Shown in pieces: positions 6,922-51,499 of a stretch of DNA of 51,499 nt. Source of the stretch: Lachnospiraceae bacterium (lineage in GTDB: Bacteria; Bacillota; Clostridia; Lachnospirales; Lachnospiraceae); assembly GCA_015056945.1 (NCBI GenBank), contig SVFH01000019.1, positions 1-51,499 of the forward strand. Direction: 5' to 3'. Position 1 is the stretch's first letter. Each line of letters begins with the position of its first letter. Below the pieces are notes generated by a model that was not told the origin of the DNA, did not search any database, and saw nothing but the letters and a program-made list of their open reading frames with translations. The translations under genes and the position numbers were made by a program.

Positions 6922-7593
6922 ATGTTTAAAATTTTAGTGGTAGAAGATGACAAAGACTTAAATAAAACCGTTTGTTCCTTTCTAAACAGCAGCGGTTACG
7001 AGGCAACGGGTTGTCTTGGCGCTGAAGAAGCATATGACGTAATGTATGATACGGTATTTGATTTAATCATATCGGACGTTATGATGCCGGGAATAGACGG
7101 TTTTGAGTTTGCCAAAACAGTACGTTCGCTGAACGAAGAAATCCCTATTCTTTTTATGACGGCGCGAGACGACTTTGCGTCAAAGCAGAGGGGATTTCGC
7201 GTGGGCGTAGACGATTATATGGTTAAACCCATTGATTTGGATGAGTTGTTCTTACGTATCGGCGCACTCTTACGTCGTGCAAAGATTGCCACGTCAAGAA
7301 CGCTTACGGTGGGTAATTTTAAAATGGATATGGATGAGCGTACGGCTTATCTTGGCGAAGAGGAAATCTCACTTACCACAAGGGAATTTAATATTCTATA
7401 TAAAATGCTTTCTTACCCTAAGAAGACATTTACACGCAGTCAGCTAATGGACGAATTCTGGGACGCGGATACCGCTTCGGGAACCAGAACGGTGGATGTA
7501 TATATGACCAAGCTTCGTGCGAAACTTGAGATGTGCGAAGACTTTGAAATTGTGACGGTACATGGGCTTGGGTATAAGGTGGTGATTTCGTGA
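6922..7593 (+). CDS. OmpR/PhoB-family response regulator
   Basis: Residues 1-118 are a receiver domain with the acidic pair E8-D9-D10, phospho-acceptor D52 (ISDVMMPGIDG), T80 and K102 (MVKPID). Residues about 128-220 are a winged-helix DNA-binding domain of the OmpR type (LTTREFNILYKML, RTVDVYMTKLRAKL, TVHGLGYKV). Length (223 aa) is normal. The ribosome site AAAGGAGG sits a few bases before the ATG. The stop overlaps the start of the downstream kinase by four bases, so the two are translationally coupled. The sequence AACTTTAACA at 6861-6870, shared with the promoter region of the 6141 gene, is a possible binding half-site. Confidence 0.95.
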   Translation: MFKILVVEDDKDLNKTVCSFLNSSGYEATGCLGAEEAYDVMYDTVFDLIISDVMMPGIDGFEFAKTVRSLNEEIPILFMTARDDFASKQRGFRVGVDDYMVKPIDLDELFLRIGALLRRAKIATSRTLTVGNFKMDMDERTAYLGEEEISLTTREFNILYKMLSYPKKTFTRSQLMDEFWDADTASGTRTVDVYMTKLRAKLEMCEDFEIVTVHGLGYKVVIS

Positions 7594-39175: not shown

Positions 39176-39228
39176 AAAAGAACAGTTGAATAATGAAAAC
39201 AGGATGAAAAGAAAGGCGGAATTTGGGT

Positions 39229-39684
39229 ATGGTAATTAATACAAGAGTATTTGGCAAAGTTACAATTGAAGACAACAAGTTGATTCATTTCCCCGGAGGA
39301 ATCGTAGGATTTCCTGAGTTGAAAGATTTTGCATTGATTCATGATCCTGATCAGGGAGAGAACGGCGGCATTCGTTGGATGCAGTCTGTGCAGGAACCTC
39401 AGTTTGCAATGCCTGTGATTGATCCGTTACGTGTGAAACCGGATTACAATCCTGTTGTGGAGGATGATTTATTGGCACCGCTTGGTGAGATTGATACGGA
39501 AGAATTACTTGTGCTGGTTACCATCACAGTGCCTTCTGACTTAACCAAGATGACAGTGAATTTGAAGGCTCCTTTTATTATCAATGCTGCAAATCGCAAA
39601 GCAGCACAGATTATCGGAGAAGGTTATGAAGTGAAATTCCCCGTTTATGAAATTCTACAGAATTTAAAAAAGGAAGGTGAGTAA
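39229..39684 (+). CDS. fliW: Flagellar assembly factor FliW
   Basis: 151 residues from the ATG at 39229, which sits ten bases from AAAGGCGG; an in-frame TTG at 39223 is too close to that site. Family motifs are FGKVTIEDNKLIHFPGGIVG then FPELKDFAL, and the C-terminal FPVYEILQNL. FliW binds flagellin and, when flagellin is exported, binds CsrA instead, releasing translational repression. csrA follows two bases after the stop. Confidence 0.95.
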   Translation: MVINTRVFGKVTIEDNKLIHFPGGIVGFPELKDFALIHDPDQGENGGIRWMQSVQEPQFAMPVIDPLRVKPDYNPVVEDDLLAPLGEIDTEELLVLVTITVPSDLTKMTVNLKAPFIINAANRKAAQIIGEGYEVKFPVYEILQNLKKEGE

Positions 39685-39686
39685 AA

Positions 39687-39902
39687 ATGCTTGCATTATC
39701 GAGAAAAAAGAATGAGGCAATTGTGATTAATAACAACGTAGAAATCACCGTCCTTGAAGTAAAAGGGGATCAGGTGAAACTCGGTATTTCTGCGCCTAAA
39801 GAGGTGCCGGTATATCGTAAGGAAGTGTATGTGCAGATTCAGGAGGCTAACGAGGCTGCAATGAATATGACGGATGCAGAGGCATTGAAGAAGATTTTTT
39901 AG
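39687..39902 (+). CDS. csrA: Translational regulator CsrA
   Basis: 71 residues starting MLALSRKKNEAIVINNNVEI with VLEVKGDQVKLGISAPKEV, a standard CsrA. The RNA-binding strand 1 and the VYRKEVY segment are intact, and the C-terminal extension (ANEAAMNMTDAEALKKIF) is like that of Firmicutes CsrA that interact with FliW. Binding sites are proposed below for both flagellin leaders. A strong terminator follows at once. Confidence 0.97.
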   Translation: MLALSRKKNEAIVINNNVEITVLEVKGDQVKLGISAPKEVPVYRKEVYVQIQEANEAAMNMTDAEALKKIF

Positions 39903-39908
39903 TGAAGA

Positions 39909-39950
39909 ACACCATAGTATTACATGGCAGTAATGCTATGGTGTGTTTTT
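39909..39950 (+). terminator. Strong terminator after csrA
   Basis: ACACCATAGTATTAC (39909-39923) pairs with GTAATGCTATGGTGT (39930-39944) with one wobble, followed by TTTTT. It also argues against translation starting at the upstream in-frame GTG of the next gene. Confidence 0.9.
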
Positions 39951-39988
39951 ATTTTATAGTTCGACAGTCAAGAAGGTGTGAGAATTTA

Positions 39989-41104
39989 ATGAAAGAGCTT
40001 AACGAAAATAAAATATCTTTTATAATATGTAAGAATAATGATATGTTTTATGAAGAATGTTTATTGTATTTGAACGAGTTAATTGTGCCTAATGGTTTTG
40101 AAGTGGACGTTCTTGCTATATCGGATGCCAAAACAATGATTTCTGGGTATAATGAAGGGATGAAAGCTTCAGATGCTAAATATAAGATTTATATGCATCA
40201 AGATGTTTTTATTGTTAATAAAGAATTTATTAGTGATATTTTGTCCGTTTTTCAAAATAATCCTGAAGTTGGAATGTTAGGTGTAATTGGCGGTGTAGAC
40301 TTACCACAAAATGCATTGATTGCGGATGCGTGGAATGTCGGAAAAACATATGCGAGTAATTTTGCAGCTACATTCGAAGTGGTATATAACTTTAGTCCAA
40401 GTAGAGAATATACTGAGGTCGAGGCGGTCGATGGTATGCTTATGATGACGCAGTACGATTTGGAGTGGCGTGAAGATTTAGACCTGAAGTGGGATTTTTA
40501 TGATATTTCTCAGTCTATGGAATTTAGAAGAAAAGGATATAAGGTTGCTATCCCGAGGCAAAATACACCATGGTGCATTCATGATTGCGGACATTCAAAA
40601 ATGATTTGTTATGATGCGAATCGAGAAGTGTTTTTAAAGGAGTATGGTGATTTTTTTGGTGAGAGATTTTCTCCTTTTTTAAATATTGAGAAAATGCAAT
40701 TAGAAGAAAAATTATTTGATACATTAAAAATGTATATGGAAAGCGGAGATGTGGATGAAGTTTGCTCCGTATTGGATGGTTTTTCGGAAATCAAGTTTAG
40801 AAACACAAATATTCAGTACCTATTTAACTTTTGTGAGATTTATAAAGAGGAGAAGAGGTTAGGGGTTGCAAAAGAATGTCAGTTTATTAATGGAGAGAGA
40901 TGGGAGGAACTTGTTAATAAATATAATATAATCAAGTTTAGTCTTAGAAGGATAGAAAACGAAATATGTAAAGATGAATTAATTCAAGTAATGATAGAGA
41001 ATATAAACAAAACAATATCATGTATCGCGGTATATTTGATTGCAATTAGGGCATGTGTTGATAAAAAAGAGATAGAAAAACTATTGACGATATACAAAAA
41101 GTAG
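39989..41104 (+). CDS. Glycosyltransferase (GT2-like) with C-terminal helical domain
   Basis: 371 residues from ATG 39989 (GAAGGTG upstream); a GTG at 39902 would put the start before a terminator. Residues 1-about 220 are a GT2-like fold with AISDAKTMISGYNEG, an acidic/metal motif YMHQDVFI, VEAVDGMLMMTQYDLEWRED and DFYDISQSMEF. Residues about 225-371 are a separate helical domain. The catalytic domain matches the minus-strand gene at 41135 and the C-terminal part resembles the minus-strand gene at 41838, so here the two are fused. It likely adds a sugar to flagellin or an intermediate, judged by position only. A+T content is higher than in the flagellar genes. Confidence 0.8.
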   Translation: MKELNENKISFIICKNNDMFYEECLLYLNELIVPNGFEVDVLAISDAKTMISGYNEGMKASDAKYKIYMHQDVFIVNKEFISDILSVFQNNPEVGMLGVIGGVDLPQNALIADAWNVGKTYASNFAATFEVVYNFSPSREYTEVEAVDGMLMMTQYDLEWREDLDLKWDFYDISQSMEFRRKGYKVAIPRQNTPWCIHDCGHSKMICYDANREVFLKEYGDFFGERFSPFLNIEKMQLEEKLFDTLKMYMESGDVDEVCSVLDGFSEIKFRNTNIQYLFNFCEIYKEEKRLGVAKECQFINGERWEELVNKYNIIKFSLRRIENEICKDELIQVMIENINKTISCIAVYLIAIRACVDKKEIEKLLTIYKK

Positions 41105-41134: not shown

Positions 41135-41827
41135 CTATTTTGTATCGGAAGTTATTGATAAATCTTTTTTGTATTCTGCAAGGAAAATTTTACGATAATC
41201 ATCGTAATTTGAAAGATTGAGTATTAATCCATCATCGTGTACGCATAAAGGTTTATTGAATACAGGTACAACAATTGAATAACCGGCTCTTTTGAATTCC
41301 ATGCTTTGCGAAGCATCGTAGAAATCCCATCCGGTAAAAAGATCTTCGCGCCAAGGGAGGTCGTATTGGGTTGCAATTAACAAACCATCAACGACTTCAA
41401 CTTTGGAGAGATTTTCAAATGTCGGTTTTGTATATTGGGAACATAAAGAGATGTTCAGGTTCTTGTGCGAGTAAAGACTGTATTCCCTAGGGGCTTGCCA
41501 CATAATGCCGGATGAGGCCATTTGGTAAGCACCTACAATTCCGACCATTCCTATGCTTGCGTCTAAAGAAAAAATGTCAATTAACTCTTGTAAAAAGTAA
41601 ATATCTGTTATAAAGACATCTTGATGCATATAAATCTTATATTTAGCATCTGAAGCATTCAAACCTTCGTTGTATCCTGAAGTCATTGATTTGGCGTCCG
41701 ATATAGTAAGGATGTCCACTTCAAATCCATCGGGAATGACTAAACGATTTAAGTAAAGAAAACACTCTTCTAAATAGAGGGGGTTGTTTACACACATAAT
41801 AATACATATTTTCTGAGGATTTATCAT
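41135..41827 (-). CDS. Glycosyltransferase (GT2-like)
   Basis: 230 residues with AAAGGAG before the ATG. It aligns with the first 220 residues of the plus-strand gene at 39989: TISDAKSMTSGYNEG, SDAKYKIYMHQDVFI, VEVVDGLLIATQYDLPWRED, DFYDASQSMEF. The catalytic domain is alone here; the helical domain is the separate gene just upstream (41838). It probably forms a two-gene minus-strand unit driven from 42355. Its acceptor is unknown; flagellin is the likely one from location. Confidence 0.8.
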   Translation of the reverse strand: MINPQKICIIMCVNNPLYLEECFLYLNRLVIPDGFEVDILTISDAKSMTSGYNEGLNASDAKYKIYMHQDVFITDIYFLQELIDIFSLDASIGMVGIVGAYQMASSGIMWQAPREYSLYSHKNLNISLCSQYTKPTFENLSKVEVVDGLLIATQYDLPWREDLFTGWDFYDASQSMEFKRAGYSIVVPVFNKPLCVHDDGLILNLSNYDDYRKIFLAEYKKDLSITSDTK

Positions 41828-45432: not shown

Positions 45433-45459
45433 TTAAGTTTATACAAAAGTCACCGATAT
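45433..45459 (+). promoter_or_regulatory. Sigma-D promoter, first flagellin gene
   Basis: TTAAGTTT (45433-45440), 11-base spacer, ACCGATAT (45452-45459); same spacing and -10 as at flgM and the second flagellin. Confidence 0.92.
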
Positions 45460-45464
45460 ATATT

Positions 45465-45591
45465 ACAAGTAAAACAAAGTTACTTGTTAACAAACGTAAG
45501 ATTGAAAGTCAAGCGTACGATTGATAAACAATCTTACAACCAGTTAAAACGAGTAGCAAGGAAGCTACCGTAAATTCAAGGAGGAAAAACT
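45465..45591 (+). ncRNA. Structured flagellin mRNA leader with likely CsrA sites, copy 1
   Basis: The 127-base leader can fold into successive stems: ACAAGTAA/TTACTTGT (45465-45487); GTAAGATTG/CAATCTTAC (45496-45537) enclosing TCAA/TTGA (45509-45524); and GTAGC-AAGGAA-GCTAC (45553-45568). The last presents GGA in its loop, as CsrA prefers. AAGGAGG at 45578-45584 is the ribosome site and a second GGA. The counterpart at 51298-51423 keeps the stems through compensatory changes. Confidence 0.8.
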
Positions 45592-46404
45592 ATGATAGTA
45601 CAGCACAATTTAAGAGCAATGAATTCCAACAGAATGTTAGGCTTGACACAGACAACACAGTCTAAATCAACTGAGAAGTTATCATCCGGTTATAAAATTA
45701 ACCGTGCAGCAGATGATGCAGCAGGATTGGCAATCAGTGAAAAGATGAGACGTCAGATTAGAGGTCTTACACAGGCATCTTTGAACGCACAGGATGGTAT
45801 TTCAATGGTACAGACAGCTGAAGGTGCATTACATGAAGTACATGATATGCTTCAGAGAATGAATGAACTTGCAGTTAAAGCAGCTAACGGAACTAACATG
45901 TCAGAAGACCAGAACTATATCCAGAAGGAAGTAGATGCGCTGGTAAGTGAAATCGACAGAGTTGCAGCTACAACTACATTCAACAATCAGACATTATTGA
46001 ATGCAGACTGCACATTCAAACTTCAGGTTGGTGCTGAAAGCGCAAGTATTAATCAGATTGACGTAGCAATCAATAAGATGAATGCAGAAGGACTTAGTGT
46101 TAATGATATTTCTGTTGAAGGAACAGATGCAACTGCAGCGATTGATACAATTAAGGAGGCTATCAAGACTCTTAATGAACAGCGTGCAGCTCTTGGTGCT
46201 CAGCAGAATCGTCTTGAACACACCGTTAACAACCTTGATAACGTTGTTGAGAACACAACCGCAGCAGAAGCTCAGATTCGTGATACAGATATGGCAGCTG
46301 AAATGGTTAAGTATTCTAACAATAACATTCTTGCACAGGCTGGTCAGGCAATGCTTGCACAGGCTAATCAGTCCAATCAGGGTGTTCTGTCCTTATTACA
46401 GTAA
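45592..46404 (+). CDS. hag: Flagellin, first copy
   Basis: 270 residues, a compact flagellin of the Clostridia/Bacillus type. The conserved N-terminal half (MIVQHNLRAMNSNRMLGLTQ, then SSGYKINRAADDAAGLAISE) and C-terminal half (AEAQIRDTDMAAEMVKYSNN, ending QANQSNQGVLSLLQ) are joined by a short variable centre. It is the filament subunit, expressed from a sigma-D promoter through a structured leader; translation is expected to be held by CsrA and relieved by FliW, as known for B. subtilis Hag. The start of another flagellin, identical over the 76 visible bases, is at 51424. Confidence 0.97.
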   Translation: MIVQHNLRAMNSNRMLGLTQTTQSKSTEKLSSGYKINRAADDAAGLAISEKMRRQIRGLTQASLNAQDGISMVQTAEGALHEVHDMLQRMNELAVKAANGTNMSEDQNYIQKEVDALVSEIDRVAATTTFNNQTLLNADCTFKLQVGAESASINQIDVAINKMNAEGLSVNDISVEGTDATAAIDTIKEAIKTLNEQRAALGAQQNRLEHTVNNLDNVVENTTAAEAQIRDTDMAAEMVKYSNNNILAQAGQAMLAQANQSNQGVLSLLQ

Positions 46405-46421
46405 TCAGTAGTTGAAAGAGA

Positions 46422-46450
46422 GGGGCTGACGTAAGTCAGTCCCTTTTTTA
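46422..46450 (+). terminator. Terminator after first flagellin gene
   Basis: GGGGCTGAC (46422-46430) pairs with GTCAGTCCC (46435-46443) with one wobble, then a run of T. The glycosyltransferase gene downstream has no obvious own promoter and may depend on read-through. Confidence 0.85.
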
Positions 46451-46466
46451 ATTTTGGGAGAGAGTG

Positions 46467-47639
46467 ATGAAGAGAGTTCTTTTTGAATGCAAATGTGTAT
46501 GGGGTGTCCAAAATGCATGGGAGCAATTTGGCTACGAGTGCTTGGAATCTCCGATTGAGTTATCTAAGCAGTCTGTGAAAAAAATATGCGAAATAATTGA
46601 ATATTATATGAATGAAGAGGATACATTGTGTGTTTTTTCATTTGACTTTTCTCCTGCAATTGCTATGGCATGCCAGAAGCATAAGATTGTTTATATAAGC
46701 TGGGTGCTTGATTGTCCACATGTTTCATTATGGTCAAAGTCAGCAGAATACGAAGGAAACAGAATATTCGTATTTGATTATGTGCAATATCGTATGGTTT
46801 TGGAACGTGGATTAGAACATGTCTATTATTTGCCCTTATGCGCGGATTTGGATTCATTTGAGCAATGTATTGCGAGAGATCAGGAAAAACAAAAAGAACG
46901 TTATTATGCTGATGTTTCTTTTGTGGGGAATCTGTATAATGACGAAAAACATAATTTGTTTGATAAAATTTCTTATTTGCCTGATGATGTAAATGGCTAT
47001 CTGGATGCCCTTATGGATATCCAAAGAAAAATGTGGGGCGTCGATTTACTATATGATGCAATAAACGGCAGTATCAACTCTAAATTGAAAGAATACGTTC
47101 AAATTGGTGAAAGTGATGATTTTGTTGAAGGAACCTTTGAAGTAATGTTCGCCAATATATTGGGACAAAAACTTGCACAGTTAGAAAGAATGGAAGTGTG
47201 TAGTTACCTTGCCCAAAATTATGATTTTCATTTGTATACCGGTAGTGATACCTCGTATGATCCAGCTATAAGAAATTGTGGACATGCAGACTATTTAAAA
47301 GAAATGCCATTGATTTTTAACTATAGCAAAATTAATCTTCATATTACGTTGCGTTCGATTACGTCCGGAATGTCACTTCGTGTTTTAGATGTTCTGGCTT
47401 GTGGAGGTTTTTTGCTTACCAATTATCAACCGGAAATTGCAGAGTATTTTATAGATGGGGAAGAATTGGTTATGTACCATAGCTTTGAAGACATGTATGA
47501 AAAAATAGATTATTATTTGGAACATGAAGATGAGCGGAAACAGATTGCGCGGGCTGGATATAAGAAAGTAAAAGAGTGCTTTAATTATATAAAAGGATTT
47601 GGACAGATTGTAGAAATCTTGGAGGGTATAAATGGATAA
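46467..47639 (+). CDS. CgeB-like glycosyltransferase (GT4-type)
   Basis: 390 residues from ATG 46467, preceded by GGGAGAGA. The N-terminal half is DUF3880-like (CVFSFDFSPAIAMACQKHKI then VYISWVLDCPH). The C-terminal half is the CgeB-type glycosyl-transfer domain with SGMSLRVLDVLACGGFLLTN, QPEIAEYFIDGEELVMY and FEDMYEKIDYYLEHEDERKQ. It matches the two minus-strand enzymes at 48142 and 49957 in this layout. The next gene overlaps it by eight bases and is a small partner protein. A role in flagellin glycosylation is inferred from position between two flagellin genes. Confidence 0.85.
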   Translation: MKRVLFECKCVWGVQNAWEQFGYECLESPIELSKQSVKKICEIIEYYMNEEDTLCVFSFDFSPAIAMACQKHKIVYISWVLDCPHVSLWSKSAEYEGNRIFVFDYVQYRMVLERGLEHVYYLPLCADLDSFEQCIARDQEKQKERYYADVSFVGNLYNDEKHNLFDKISYLPDDVNGYLDALMDIQRKMWGVDLLYDAINGSINSKLKEYVQIGESDDFVEGTFEVMFANILGQKLAQLERMEVCSYLAQNYDFHLYTGSDTSYDPAIRNCGHADYLKEMPLIFNYSKINLHITLRSITSGMSLRVLDVLACGGFLLTNYQPEIAEYFIDGEELVMYHSFEDMYEKIDYYLEHEDERKQIARAGYKKVKECFNYIKGFGQIVEILEGING

Positions 47640-48123
47640 GTTTGTTTTGGTTTGCGACGGAAGTCAGGCCGACGGATACGTCAGATTGATGGAATTATTT
47701 GAAGAGATATTGCATAAAGAAAGTTATGAGTGGAGCAGATTATATATTCAATCCGGTTCACCTACAGAGTATATAGAAGTATTAGAGGCTGCCGAATATG
47801 TATGTGTAATAGATTTGGCGGGAAGCCAAATTAGAACGTTATTGGATGACTCCGTTTACAATGTATTGAGGGCCAAACAAATTCACTTTATTGCTGATAC
47901 ATCTGTTTTGAAAGTGTATAAAATGGAATCCATGGCATTAAATTTATATTTATTTTTGCCGGAAAATGAAAAAAAGTATATAAATGAATTCGAACATATA
48001 CCGAATCTGCTTACATATCCTATATTGGAGAAGGATGAGAAAGGAAGACCGGTTGACAGTCCGAATAATCGTGAAGTGATTAGAATGGTTTGCAAAAGGT
48101 TTTGGGATGATGTGAAAAATTGA
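47632..48123 (+). CDS. Small partner protein of the glycosyltransferases (163 aa)
   Basis: I do not recognise a named domain. The 163-residue product shares a pattern with the protein at 49425: start FVLVCDG/FLVCAYE, IDLAGSQ/IDMAGFQ, RAKQIHF/SAKQIHL, MALNLYLFL/MALNLYIFL and HIPNLL/HIPNLH. It overlaps the CgeB-like gene by eight bases and so is co-translated with it. No signal or membrane segment is present. Possibly a regulatory or acceptor-delivery subunit of the transferase. Confidence 0.7.
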   Translation: MDKFVLVCDGSQADGYVRLMELFEEILHKESYEWSRLYIQSGSPTEYIEVLEAAEYVCVIDLAGSQIRTLLDDSVYNVLRAKQIHFIADTSVLKVYKMESMALNLYLFLPENEKKYINEFEHIPNLLTYPILEKDEKGRPVDSPNNREVIRMVCKRFWDDVKN

Positions 48124-48134
48124 GGGATTTGAAA

Positions 48135-48163
48135 GCCGGCATCAAATGATGCCGGCAATTTTT
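48135..48163. terminator. Bidirectional hairpin terminator
   Basis: GCCGGCATC and GATGCCGGC form a perfect stem at 48135-48156 with a four-base loop, followed by T. The convergent minus-strand gene's stop (48142-48144) lies inside it. Confidence 0.8.
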
Positions 48164-49293
48164 AACATTGCAGTTATTTTTTCGGGATATGAAAAATATT
48201 TTGACACTTTTTGAAAACCATTTTTTGTAATCTGATTTCTGATATCGTCATGTTTGAGATAAAAATCTGCTTTTTGGATTGCGTCTTCCAGACTTTCGTA
48301 CATAATTACGTCTTCGCCGTCAGTAAAATATTCTGCCAGTTCTAATTGATAGTTGCTAAAAAGAGTACCGCCGGAAGCGAGAATATCCAATGCACGTAAC
48401 GGAATACCGGATTGAATACATTTTAGTGTTGGATTTAAGTTTAATTTGCTCAATCTAAACACTTTGGGCATCGTAGAATAATAATGAGCTTCACCGCGAT
48501 AGGAAAGATGTGATAGTAATGGCGGTTGTTCGCTTGAATAATAATGAACATCATGATAATTTCCTAACAAGCTTAATAATGCAGTTCTTTCTGTACAGGT
48601 AATTTGTTTATTCAGCGTATGCACAAATTGTTCTTTTGTGATTTTTTCTTTTCTGCCTAAATGGATAAGTGGTGCATTTATACGTTCGAGTAACTCATCT
48701 GAAATGATTTCGTTAACAAAATTGTATCCGTATATTTTTATTTGAGCATCTAAAATTGCATTTATATATCCTTTTTCATAATCAGTTTGATGAGACATGA
48801 TTTGCGAAAAGGAATTTGTATAAAAGTGTCCGATAAAGGAGATATCACAGGAATATTTCTTTTGATCCGCGATTGTAATTTGTGTTTTAGAAAGTCTAGA
48901 GGGGTTAACAGCAAGCGGCATGTGAAAAATATTGACACCGCCGGCTTGCGCAACACGCTCTGCATCTATGCTGTCAAATAAAAAAATAAAGCTGGTAGGA
49001 TATTGATAGTATGATATTTGCGAAATGTCAATGGGAGAATCATAAACCCAGGAAAGATATTTCTTGTTTTGCGCAAAACAGATTTTCGCAACAATGGGAC
49101 TGAAATTCGTGCTCATTACAAAATCATAATTGTCTCTATTCAGTTGTTCTGTGAATTTTCGCTCGAAGAATTCATCGTCATAAAGATCATTATAACGATA
49201 AAGGATATTTTGACAATGAAATCCGAGTTGCTCAAGATAAAATATTAAATCTTTTTGGGTATAAGAACAGATATCGTATAGTAGAACTTTCAT
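48142..49293 (-). CDS. CgeB-like glycosyltransferase
   Basis: 383 residues from the ATG at 49293, where GAGG precedes by six bases; the frame opens four codons earlier at a GTG. It is closely related to the enzyme at 49957: MKVLLYDICSYTQKDL versus MNILLYDIGSYTQSDF, CIQSGIPLRALDILASGGTL versus SIQSGIPLRALDILGSKGVL, ELAEYFTDGEDVIMY versus ELAEYFTDGVDVIMY. The SGIPLRALDI/AEYFTDG block is the sugar-nucleotide region of this CgeB-like family. It is divergently transcribed from the partner gene at 49425, with overlapping -35 boxes. Confidence 0.85.
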   Translation of the reverse strand: MKVLLYDICSYTQKDLIFYLEQLGFHCQNILYRYNDLYDDEFFERKFTEQLNRDNYDFVMSTNFSPIVAKICFAQNKKYLSWVYDSPIDISQISYYQYPTSFIFLFDSIDAERVAQAGGVNIFHMPLAVNPSRLSKTQITIADQKKYSCDISFIGHFYTNSFSQIMSHQTDYEKGYINAILDAQIKIYGYNFVNEIISDELLERINAPLIHLGRKEKITKEQFVHTLNKQITCTERTALLSLLGNYHDVHYYSSEQPPLLSHLSYRGEAHYYSTMPKVFRLSKLNLNPTLKCIQSGIPLRALDILASGGTLFSNYQLELAEYFTDGEDVIMYESLEDAIQKADFYLKHDDIRNQITKNGFQKVSKYFSYPEKITAMLKIAGII

Positions 49294-49332
49294 AAATAAC
49301 CTCACTAAAATGATATGTGGATAACTATAATA

Positions 49333-49361
49333 AGTATAACTATCTGCAATTTTATTGTCAA
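49333..49361 (-). promoter_or_regulatory. Sigma-A promoter for the 48142-49293 gene
   Basis: Minus-strand TTGACA (49356-49361), 17-base spacer, TATACT (49333-49338); its -35 overlaps that of the plus-strand promoter at 49355. Confidence 0.8.
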
Positions 49362-49383
49362 ACGATTACTATATTGTTATAGT
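49355..49383 (+). promoter_or_regulatory. Sigma-A promoter for the 49425 gene
   Basis: TTGTCA (49355-49360), 17-base spacer, TATAGT (49378-49383). It is divergent from the promoter at 49333-49361. Confidence 0.8.
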
Positions 49384-49388
49384 AATCG
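49363..49388. repeat. Perfect 11-bp inverted repeat over the promoter (candidate operator)
   Basis: CGATTACTATA (49363-49373), loop TTGT, TATAGTAATCG (49378-49388). It covers the spacer and -10 of the plus promoter, as an operator would; no T-run follows, so it is not a terminator. Confidence 0.7.
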
Positions 49389-49424
49389 TAGGAGACAAAA
49401 GTGAAGCAGCGAAGGAGAAACGTA

Positions 49425-49937
49425 ATGAAAACAAATTTTCTGGTATGTGCTTATGAGGATAGAAATCAATATGAGCATTTGGTTTCTATGATAAAAGATG
49501 TGATGTCAGAATATGAGGTAAAAACAACAGAGCTCTATTTTGAAGAAAAGGAAGTGAATACTTTGGCGCGAAAGTTAACGACTTTGAATAATGACTTTAT
49601 CTTTACAATAGATATGGCGGGATTTCAAGCAAGTACTTTTCTGGGAACACATGCATATAATATGGTTTCGGCAAAGCAAATACATCTTGTTTTAGATGAG
49701 AGAAAAATGGATAAGTACGGAATGAATGAGATGGCTTTAAATTTATACATTTTTTTGGATGAAGGAAAGATAAATTGTGATTCGAAATATTCGCATATTC
49801 CCAATTTACATTTTTTCCAAAGCTTTGAATGCAATGAGAGGGGGAAGATTAGAAAATGCTCTGAGAATGTTGCAATTATAAGGGAAATAATAGGAACAGT
49901 AATGAATGAACTGAATGCAGTTTATGGTAATGCATAA
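49425..49937 (+). CDS. Small partner protein of the glycosyltransferases (170 aa)
   Basis: 170 residues from ATG 49425, eight bases after AAGGAG; a GTG at 49401 lacks a ribosome site. It is homologous to the protein at 47632 (IDMAGFQASTFLGT versus IDLAGSQIRTLLDD; EMALNLYIFL; YSHIPNLH). The neighbouring CgeB-like genes are on the opposite strand here, whereas at 47632 the partner overlaps its transferase on the same strand, so the pairing has been rearranged. Function unknown. Confidence 0.7.
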   Translation: MKTNFLVCAYEDRNQYEHLVSMIKDVMSEYEVKTTELYFEEKEVNTLARKLTTLNNDFIFTIDMAGFQASTFLGTHAYNMVSAKQIHLVLDERKMDKYGMNEMALNLYIFLDEGKINCDSKYSHIPNLHFFQSFECNERGKIRKCSENVAIIREIIGTVMNELNAVYGNA

Positions 49938-49944
49938 ATATAGT

Positions 49945-49977
49945 AAAACCGTCGGCTTAGGATAAACCGGCGGTTTT
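49945..49977. terminator. Bidirectional terminator
   Basis: AAAACCGTCGG (49945-49955) pairs with CCGGCGGTTTT (49967-49977) with one wobble, between the convergent genes ending at 49937 and 49957. Confidence 0.85.
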
Positions 49978-51111
49978 AAATATATAATTGATTTTTTCTG
50001 GATAAGCAAAGTTTGTTGCGACGTTATTGTATCCGTTTAATGCTATCTGTTGACGGATAGCGTCATTTTTGAGATAGAAGTCGGCTTTGTCCAATGCAGA
50101 TTCTATGCTGTCATACATGATTACATCGACTCCGTCTGTAAAGTATTCTGCGAGTTCCGGTTGGAAGTTACTAAGCAGGACACCCTTAGAACCAAGAATG
50201 TCGAGTGCTCTTAACGGAATCCCGGATTGGATGCTTTTGAGCGTGGGGTTTAAATTTAGTTTGCTAAGCCTGAATATTTTGGGCATTTCAGTAAAATATT
50301 TCGCGGAACCCTGATGTTTTAAATGTGAAAGCACAGGAGGGGTTTCTGTGGCATAATAGTGAACCTGAAATAATTGTCCCAAAAGAGTAAGAAGGGCTAA
50401 ACGCTCAGTGTGAGTAATCTGCTTAGCGATGTTATAGATAAGGCCCTGTTTGGAGAGTTCTTCGGAAACATTGGATATGGAATGAAGGCGCTGATTGAAT
50501 CTGTTAATAAGTTCATCGGTAATCAACTCTTCAATGAAATTGTATCCATATATTTTTAGTTGCGAATCAAGAATCGCATTAATATATCCTTTATCGTAAT
50601 CTGTTTGTACAGACATGATTTGCGCCAGTGGAGTGTTGTAAAATTGACCAATAAAAGATATGTCGCAGGTGTAAGCGGAAATATCTTTTTGCGTGATTAA
50701 TATTTTATTAAGACGTTCTGTATTGACAGCCAACGGTAAGTGATAAATATTGATATTACCTAAACTTTTTATTTGTTCTACCTGAATTCGATCAAAATGA
50801 AAAATGTGGTTTGTCGGGAATTGAAAATATTTAATTTGCTCCGTGTTTATAGGTGAATCATAAATCCATGAAATATATTTTAGCTTATGTTTATAACACA
50901 ATTTGGCTACGATAGGACTGAAATTCGTGCTAATTACACAATCGTAAAGAAGTGCTGATAATTCTTTGTTAAATTTGTATTCGAAAAAATCATCATGATA
51001 AAGATTGGTGCATTTATATAATAGATTTTTACAGTTGTGCCCAGACTTTCGAAGAAAGTAAATGAAGTCTGATTGTGTATAGGAACCGATATCATATAAA
51101 AGGATATTCAT
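49957..51111 (-). CDS. CgeB-like glycosyltransferase
   Basis: 384 residues with AGGAG nine or so bases before the ATG. It is the close paralogue of the 48142 enzyme over its whole length (for example SYTQSDFIYFLRKSGHNCKN; VISTNFSPIVAKLCYKHKLK; YISWIYDSPINTEQIKYFQF). The family block SGIPLRALDILGSKGVLLSN and AEYFTDGVDVIMY is intact. It presumably acts in the same glycosylation route; the duplication may give different acceptor or sugar choice. Confidence 0.85.
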   Translation of the reverse strand: MNILLYDIGSYTQSDFIYFLRKSGHNCKNLLYKCTNLYHDDFFEYKFNKELSALLYDCVISTNFSPIVAKLCYKHKLKYISWIYDSPINTEQIKYFQFPTNHIFHFDRIQVEQIKSLGNINIYHLPLAVNTERLNKILITQKDISAYTCDISFIGQFYNTPLAQIMSVQTDYDKGYINAILDSQLKIYGYNFIEELITDELINRFNQRLHSISNVSEELSKQGLIYNIAKQITHTERLALLTLLGQLFQVHYYATETPPVLSHLKHQGSAKYFTEMPKIFRLSKLNLNPTLKSIQSGIPLRALDILGSKGVLLSNFQPELAEYFTDGVDVIMYDSIESALDKADFYLKNDAIRQQIALNGYNNVATNFAYPEKINYIFKTAGLS

Positions 51112-51188
51112 TTTATCTGTTTCTCCTACTGAATATAATTTTGCTTATTCTATGATAGAATGATTTATTAGACGAATATATTGTATAA

Positions 51189-51218
51189 AGTATAGCGCTT
51201 CTATCATTGATTTGTCAA
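51189..51218 (-). promoter_or_regulatory. Sigma-A promoter for the 49957-51111 gene
   Basis: Minus-strand TTGACA (51213-51218), 18-base spacer, TATACT (51189-51194). Confidence 0.75.
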
Positions 51219-51264
51219 AAAATAAATAGATTTAAAAAAAATATCAAAAAAATATTTTTTGCTA

Positions 51265-51291
51265 TAAAGTTTAAGAAGAAAACACCGATAT
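51265..51291 (+). promoter_or_regulatory. Sigma-D promoter, second flagellin gene
   Basis: TAAAGTTT (51265-51272), 11-base spacer, ACCGATAT (51284-51291), identical core to the flgM promoter. Confidence 0.93.
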
Positions 51292-51297
51292 ATATAA

Positions 51298-51423
51298 CAA
51301 GTAAAAACAAAGTTACTTATTAACCAATGTGAAATAATAAGTCGAGCGTACGATCGAGGCATTATTTTACAACCAGTTAAGACGAGTAGCAAGGATGCTA
51401 CCGTAAATTCAAGGAGGAAAAAC
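51298..51423 (+). ncRNA. Structured flagellin mRNA leader with likely CsrA sites, copy 2
   Basis: It has the same architecture as 45465-45591. GTGAAATAAT (51329-51338) pairs with ATTATTTTAC (51361-51370); the inner stem is TCGA (51342-51345) with TCGA (51354-51357); then comes GTAGC-AAGGAT-GCTAC (51386-51401), and AAGGAGG at 51411-51417. The loop region CAAGGATG matches the CsrA consensus core closely. Confidence 0.8.
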
Positions 51424-51499
51424 TATGATAGTACAGCACAATTTAAGAGCAATGAATTCCAACAGAATGTTAGGCTTGACACAGACAACACAGTCTAAA
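51424..51499 (+). CDS. hag: Flagellin, second copy (cut by window end)
   Basis: Only the first 25 codons are in the window (MIVQHNLRAMNSNRMLGLTQ, then TTQSK). Over these 76 bases it is identical in DNA to the first flagellin at 45592, although the leader just upstream differs at many places outside the stems. Near-identical coding sequence with a diverged leader suggests gene conversion or strong selection; the rest of the gene is not visible. Confidence 0.95.

Follow-up and report, generated by a model that had tools for sequence, protein, structure and literature searches.

A self-complementary hairpin loop in flagellin mRNA leaders of Lachnospiraceae: a candidate kissing-loop element beside proposed CsrA sites

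In Bacillus subtilis, the leader of the flagellin mRNA hag is controlled by CsrA and FliW. The dimerization initiation site (DIS) of HIV-1 contains a palindrome of six nucleotides. The abstract of PMC6070490 ranks flagellin with the most abundant proteins that flagellated bacteria make, and passages of PMC4894983 describe the flaA mRNA of Campylobacter jejuni as being repressed by CsrA, titrating CsrA and localizing to the poles. Functional RNA oligomers are rarely observed in nature, according to the abstract of PMC7357161. We analysed a stretch of 51,499 nt from a Lachnospiraceae bacterium (GenBank assembly GCA_015056945.1, contig SVFH01000019.1; hereafter the window), which contains two flagellin genes. 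The leader of each is predicted to fold into a stable hairpin with the palindrome CGUACG in its apical loop.

We consider it probable, from sequence comparison, that these leaders represent a structured RNA, conserved among the flagellin mRNAs of Lachnospiraceae, which is built round a kissing-loop contact, made in trans in the window and in cis elsewhere, and which lies 5' of CsrA sites. The loop is self-complementary, palindromes are exchanged for one another in a number of relatives, and one related group has complementary loops in cis; together this suggests that selection acts on a loop-loop contact.

The palindromic loop and its replacements

Leader 1 occupies positions 45465-45591 and leader 2 positions 51297-51424 (forward strand, as are all features below unless stated otherwise). 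Both have the same order of parts: a sigma-28-type promoter, a 5' hairpin, a covarying two-part hairpin, a hairpin with GGA in its loop (GGA hairpin) and the ribosome-binding site AAGGAGG. The two-part hairpin of leader 1 (45496-45537) has outer arms at 45496-45504 and 45529-45537 and the inner part TCAA-GCGTACGA-TTGA (45509-45524). In leader 2 (51329-51370), the outer arms are at 51329-51338 and 51361-51370 and the inner part is TCGA-GCGTACGA-TCGA (51342-51357). Both apical loops comprise 8 nt, GCGUACGA, within which CGTACG (45514-45519 in leader 1, the proposed kissing-loop site; 51347-51352 in leader 2) is its own reverse complement.

Leaders for comparison came from the best 80 of 501 flagellin loci in records and from genomes; of 31 genomes searched in the genus, 16 had a flagellin match, and of 397 in the family, 212. 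We took 120 further leader stretches, 119 from among the family flagellin places listed and one from the genus. Altogether, 266 records yielded 282 leaders and 21 loci yielded none; 251 leaders were from Lachnospiraceae and long enough, and 210 of them were non-redundant (two from the window, 62 from record loci and 146 derived from genomes). A sigma-28-type promoter pattern was located 70-190 nt ahead of the start in 139 of the 210.

In 44 aligned hairpins the consensus was GG-AG-CGUACG-G-CC. The closing pairs varied (GG/CC, GA/UC, CG/CG and others) and the loop was far more conserved than the stems. Unpaired purines flanked the palindrome, both in this consensus (AG-CGUACG-G) and in the window (G-CGUACG-A), and some relatives had U or no base at one side. 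Among the 210 leaders, 41 of 378 hairpin loops held a 6-nt palindrome with at least four G+C. The same class was found in 4 of 909 loops in 630 control windows drawn at random from the flanks of record loci, in 0 of 326 loops in 225 windows from the rest of the stretch analysed here, and, as G+C-rich palindromes, in 2 of 49 loops in 31 flagellin leaders from outside the Lachnospiraceae. A palindrome was held at the apex with -4 kcal/mol or better in 79 of the 210 leaders, compared with 9 to 15 in five shuffled sets; three control symmetries gave 61, 39 and 18 real leaders, the 61 arising partly from the AGGAAG loop of GGA hairpins. At -12 kcal/mol, palindromes were present in 55 leaders, the control symmetries in 10, 16 and 5.

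Replacement of the loop was scored with a covariance model, R1, for which 34 promoter-proximal CGTACG leaders were reduced to 25 that were inspected and 19 that were used. The six loop letters were masked as N, and the palindromes were therefore not chosen by eye. R1 was applied to the collected loci and to genomes. At E 0.001, the genomes with a match numbered 102 of 397 for the family sample and 64 of 392 for the order sample, counts which take in leaders that match mostly via the GGA hairpin and the ribosome site. Genome matches were read at the loci returned and at a further 20 places. Of the 75 loci or stretches L265-L339, 69 were followed by a flagellin-like start; of the other six, L302, L303, L332 and L333 continue as flagellin, L288 ends after four fitting residues and L311 reads N.

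At least 55 bits were reached by 71 non-redundant matches, and 42 of these contained CGTACG. Another palindrome was found at the apex in 9 of the 24 non-CGUACG matches with a hairpin between the 5' hairpin and the GGA hairpin, for which the middle segment was folded instead of strict columns being used; shuffling gave a mean of 1.9 and a maximum of 7 (0 of 200 shuffles reached 9). The replacements were GCGCGC in four matches, then CCUAGG, UGGCCA, CGGCCG, CAUAUG and AAGCUU. For palindromes with at least four G+C, the result was 7 of 24 versus 0.8 expected from shuffles and, at a threshold of at least 45 bits, 8 of 51 versus 1.25 (0 of 200 shuffles in each case).

Tandem paralogs in one genome (G110) show the same exchange: when the three flagellin leaders L219, L195 and L196 are aligned, the same columns hold the loops CGTACG, TGGCCA and CGCGCG, and their stems differ yet still pair. 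No other single observation shows as clearly that the letters change with self-complementarity kept. A second architecture with the outer stem GGTAATA/TTATTATA was present in 13 stretches, in which the palindrome (at least two G+C) was CCTAGG in eight, GGGCCC in one and CCCGGG in one, with none in three.

Another group, the related genus of genome G373, has leaders with two hairpins. A model of these leaders with both loops masked, R2, matched 40 of 81 genomes of that genus. Mutually complementary loops CGCAC/GUGCG were present in 29 of 38 distinct R2 matches (39 chosen loci), seven of them training rows. The two loops can pair over 5-8 bp, and true partners paired better than permuted ones (5.45 versus 5.11, p = 0.002, 31 rows). 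In the family sample, R2 matched 48 of 397 genomes, with more than 55 bits in two only (118 and 122). When the leaders were searched for 6-nt loops complementary to each other, 14 pairs in 11 leaders were found, as compared with 5, 4 and 10 pairs for control relations, and by eye the CGCAC/GUGCG group alone stood out.

Since a cis version of the contact exists in this genus, the window loop might likewise pair within its own mRNA as a pseudoknot, and GUAC does recur in the start region (AUG-RUA-GUA-CAR). No other CGUACG is present within either window leader, however, and we regard such a cis partner as most improbable. Pairing with the start-region GUAC was considered and rejected: it amounts to 4 bp only, and GTAGTACA is kept there in nine leaders whose loop is another palindrome (L046, L121, L136, L178, L190, L195, L196, L198 and L224).

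A number of findings weigh against a kissing contact. Fifteen of the 24 non-CGUACG matches had no palindrome at all. With strict-column loop registration the result was weaker (5 of 24 versus 1.4 expected, P = 0.006), since some palindromes are shifted by one or two columns, and at 45 bits or more with at least two G+C (10 of 51 versus 3.6 expected) one of 200 shuffles reached the observed value. Homologous loops can be non-palindromic, as in CGGACG (L207, L281), AGUACG (L307) and CGUACA (L309), and also in L191, L294 and L305; L223, one of four G110 leaders read, lacks such a hairpin. Leaders of a Butyrivibrio type (L017, L018, L020, L025, L181 and L320) keep the non-palindromic loop GCCAGC(A/G). 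Without a G+C limit, apices held mirror-symmetric 6-mers almost as often as palindromes (106 versus 119 leaders). Distinct palindromes at -12 kcal/mol numbered 13, the controls 10, 14 and 4, and the pooled count was not above two of the three controls. The argument for replacement is therefore based on the loops of homologous hairpins, in which self-complementarity is kept upon loop change more often than expected by chance, with exceptions. For the cis loops, the 5-bp core is invariant and provides no covariation, and complementary 5-mer loop pairs were found in 23 leaders versus 21 and 13 for control relations. Finally, CGUACG, the commonest loop, could be conserved for another reason.

Two side observations concern these loops. 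The CGGACG of L207 and L281 would be expected to form a tandem G-A mismatch in a loop-loop duplex. The Butyrivibrio-type hairpin has a long stem with 7 to 14 tip pairs in folds, and pairing of its GCCAGC with the GGA hairpin was considered as a possibility.

In an alternative explanation, a protein or a trans-acting small RNA would bind the loop, the palindrome being incidental. The conservation of CGUACG with AG before and G or A after it over many leaders would suit this explanation, as would that of the Butyrivibrio-type loop GCCAGC, which is not palindromic. Neither a protein nor a non-self RNA partner needs a palindrome, though, and yet palindromes are swapped in homologous hairpins. A second RNA with a CGUACG loop was not found in the bacterium's own genome: an R1 search returned the two leaders only, and all nine RAGCGTACGRY sites beyond them are inside open frames of at least 250 codons, counted from stop to stop. 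One of these sites (7336-7346) forms the tip of a small predicted hairpin, within a gene that reads as a response regulator (6922-7593). We consider a protein or small RNA partner unlikely.

Stem covariation and the 5' leader as a structured RNA

The minimum-energy folds of both leaders hold the hairpins described above, plus a short stem around the middle hairpin. Fold stability corresponded to z -4.7 for leader 1 and z -4.4 for leader 2 (0 of 200 shuffles equally stable) and, with some coding sequence appended, to z -4.35 and -3.4 (1 of 200 shuffles as stable). A hand count between the two leaders gave four compensatory changes on both sides of a pair, of which three fall in the outer stem and one in the inner stem, plus a single one-sided change. 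R1 scored the two-part hairpins at 97 bits (leader 1) and 93.9 bits (leader 2), both leaders being training rows of the model.

A preliminary description of this DNA had proposed from the two leaders that their stems covary. Over the 19 CGUACG leaders, 83.4% of cells were paired in the three-hairpin structure; shuffling gave 71.6%, and sliding the partners 26-54%. Both-sided changes occurred at 15 of 22 pairs, and all five measures were beyond 500 of 500 shuffles and above the slid controls, which bears out the proposal. The outer stem had both-sided changes at 8 of 8 pairs with 65% of cells paired in an alignment that has rows out of register, the inner stem at 3 of 3 pairs, and the GGA hairpin at 4 of 5 pairs with 100% of cells paired; the 5' hairpin hardly varied. 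RNAalifold, applied to a MAFFT alignment of the 44 hairpins, returned zero pairs because the outer stems shift by indels, and the structure was set by hand for covariation scoring. As these 44 rows had been picked for palindromes, their loop helix is no evidence and only their inner-stem covariation counts.

The check named in that description, a covariance model searched against Lachnospiraceae genomes, was made with the 19-leader model R1, and the 19-leader alignment gave stem covariation above chance. Its view of the covarying stem as an element apart from the GGA hairpin and the ribosome site also holds, the stem being seen in many Lachnospiraceae flagellin leaders. Every string it quoted is present; the sigma-28-type promoters, the 5'-terminal hairpins and the palindrome inside the loop had gone unnoticed. 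Its label of a 'stability or regulatory RNA' was vague, and it overlooked the main feature: the self-complementary loop, the swapped palindromes and the cis loop pair.

A 5'-terminal hairpin followed by a second stable hairpin is a common layout of RNA stabilizers. The two-part hairpin might do nothing more than stabilize or space the 5' leader, by protection from RNase or insulation of the GGA hairpin, with the loop letters being irrelevant. The stems vary with pairing kept, as a stabilizer would allow, and the short leaders L299, L304 and L308 (matches of 77-82 nt) seem to be without the hairpin. A loop far more conserved than its stems, and one that upon change becomes another palindrome more often than chance would give, argues against this explanation, which we judge improbable.

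No family of Rfam 15 (4227 families) matched a flagellin leader when the window was searched at gathering scores and leader 1 and 30 other loci permissively. The permissive search of leader 1 gave a single match, to a snoRNA model (E 3.3), located 5' of the leader; among the 30 other loci, only L116 and L013 matched microRNA or snoRNA models, with E down to 2.8e-5, below gathering and off the leaders. Two structured RNAs whose names suggest flagellar genes, Termite-flg (RF01729) and flg-Rhizobiales (RF01736), are named in a table of PMC2864571, Termite-flg in the note to the table as well; neither matched in these same searches. The whole-window search also detected a T-box leader (RF00230, 28667-28906, minus strand, 99.7 bits).

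Proposed CsrA sites, gene neighbourhood and a possible role

The GGA hairpin begins 13 nt, and the ribosome-binding site 41 nt, 3' of the two-part hairpin. In leader 1 the GGA hairpin (45550-45570, core 45553-45568) reads CG-A-GTAGC-AAGGAA-GCTAC-CG and is the proposed first CsrA site, and AAGGAGG at 45578-45584 is the proposed second one. In leader 2 the corresponding elements are GTAGC-AAGGAT-GCTAC (51386-51401, a proposed CsrA site) and AAGGAGG at 51411-51417. Thus, GGA occurs in a hairpin loop 5' of the ribosome site and again within that site, and csrA and fliW are encoded in the same genome. By analogy with B. subtilis hag and C. jejuni flaA, it is plausible that the GGA hairpin and the ribosome site are CsrA sites. 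The presence of fliW and csrA in the window, stated in the preliminary description, was confirmed by Pfam: fliW, the proposed CsrA antagonist, at 39223-39684 (FliW, 1.7e-35) and csrA at 39687-39902 (CsrA, 1.8e-26).

Both promoters were called by the sigma-28 (sigma-D) consensus. That of flagellin 1 (45433-45459) consists of TTAAGTTT (45433-45440) and CCGATAT (45453-45459), that of flagellin 2 (51264-51291) of ATAAAGTTT (51264-51272) and CCGATAT (51285-51291). The 5'-terminal hairpin of leader 1 (45465-45487; arms ACAAGTAA/TTACTTGT) is predicted from the fold and the alignment of 19 leaders, and that of leader 2 (51297-51320; arms ACAAGTAA/TTACTTAT) from the fold.

We propose that the self-complementary 6-nt loop with its flanking purines would pair two flagellin mRNAs tip to tip. 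The partners could be two copies of one mRNA or the two mRNAs of the window, which share CGUACG, and the most likely effect of pairing would be to join two leaders with their GGA hairpins and ribosome sites close downstream. CsrA being a dimer, the way it binds, and with it the repression, stability or clustering of flagellin mRNA, would come to depend on the concentration of that mRNA; FliW would free CsrA, as it does in known systems. With the GGA hairpin and the ribosome site 13 and 41 nt downstream and csrA and fliW in the window, CsrA control scaled to the amount of flagellin mRNA is the simplest role; clustering of flagellin mRNA would be a second. We infer both the formation of the dimer in the cell and its effect. 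To a wider proposal we give an even chance: flagellin mRNAs would dimerize via DIS-like kissing loops in their leaders and act as an mRNA-concentration sensor in the CsrA-FliW-flagellin circuit, tandem paralogs with unlike palindromes would pair only with themselves, and in a sister lineage the homodimer would have given way to pairing of two hairpins within a single leader.

Flagellin gene 1 (45592-46404) encodes 270 aa and is supported by a Pfam search, and the first 25 codons of flagellin gene 2 (51425-51499) are present before the window ends within the gene. The first 25 residues of flagellin 2 equal those of flagellin 1, and a 41-residue piece identical to the C-terminus is encoded on contig C2 of the same genome (G000:C2:64812-64934). 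The sequence suggests that the interruption of flagellin 2 is an assembly break at a repeat. Between the flagellin genes (46464-51111) lie three DUF3880/Glyco_trans_1_2 proteins (46464-47639, forward; 48142-49305 and 49957-51111, reverse) and two small proteins without a Pfam match (47632-48123 and 49401-49937); these genes are perhaps a flagellin glycosylation island. Two Glyco_tranf_2_5 proteins identified by Pfam adjoin fliW-csrA (39902-41104 and 41135-41827) and possibly also serve flagellin glycosylation.

Comparison with described RNAs

In the open-licence literature, with subscription papers mostly outside that scope, we found no report of a palindromic or dimerizing flagellin leader. 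A passage of PMC3720852 names csrA and sigma-28 for Roseburia and Eubacterium, and the title of that paper calls the flagellins of motile gut commensals pro-inflammatory; the text contains none of the terms leader, untranslated, palindrom-, stem-loop and secondary structure. The string 'flagel' is absent from the main text of PMC8040213. Tip-to-tip pairing of mRNAs, if confirmed, would be an unusual type of control for bacteria. The natural palindrome swaps are ready-made compensatory variants, and a self-pairing leader would open flagellin control to direct tests by simple gel and reporter work.

Among bacterial mRNAs, the nearest counterparts are the flagellin leaders under CsrA and FliW control, B. 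subtilis hag and C. jejuni flaA. The flaA leader as described in passages of PMC4894983 resembles the window leaders: both belong to a flagellin mRNA, have GGA in a hairpin loop and a second GGA at the ribosome site, occur in genomes with fliW and csrA, and show compensatory changes in their stems. Unlike them, the flaA leader has 45 nt and two stem-loops. The flaA passages mention no palindromic hairpin, and the word 'kissing' is absent from the main text. The proposed contact itself has its closest counterparts elsewhere, as passages of PMC7357161 indicate. The HIV-1 DIS shares with the window hairpin a palindromic loop with conserved flanking purines, and the 3' untranslated region (3'UTR) of oskar mRNA forms a homodimer through a conserved GC-rich palindromic loop of six nucleotides, although the oskar loop is larger than that of the window and is flanked by pyrimidines. 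Whereas the DIS belongs to a viral genome and the oskar element to a 3'UTR of the fly, the window leaders are 5' leaders of bacterial mRNAs, in which a dimer is predicted from sequence beside putative CsrA sites.

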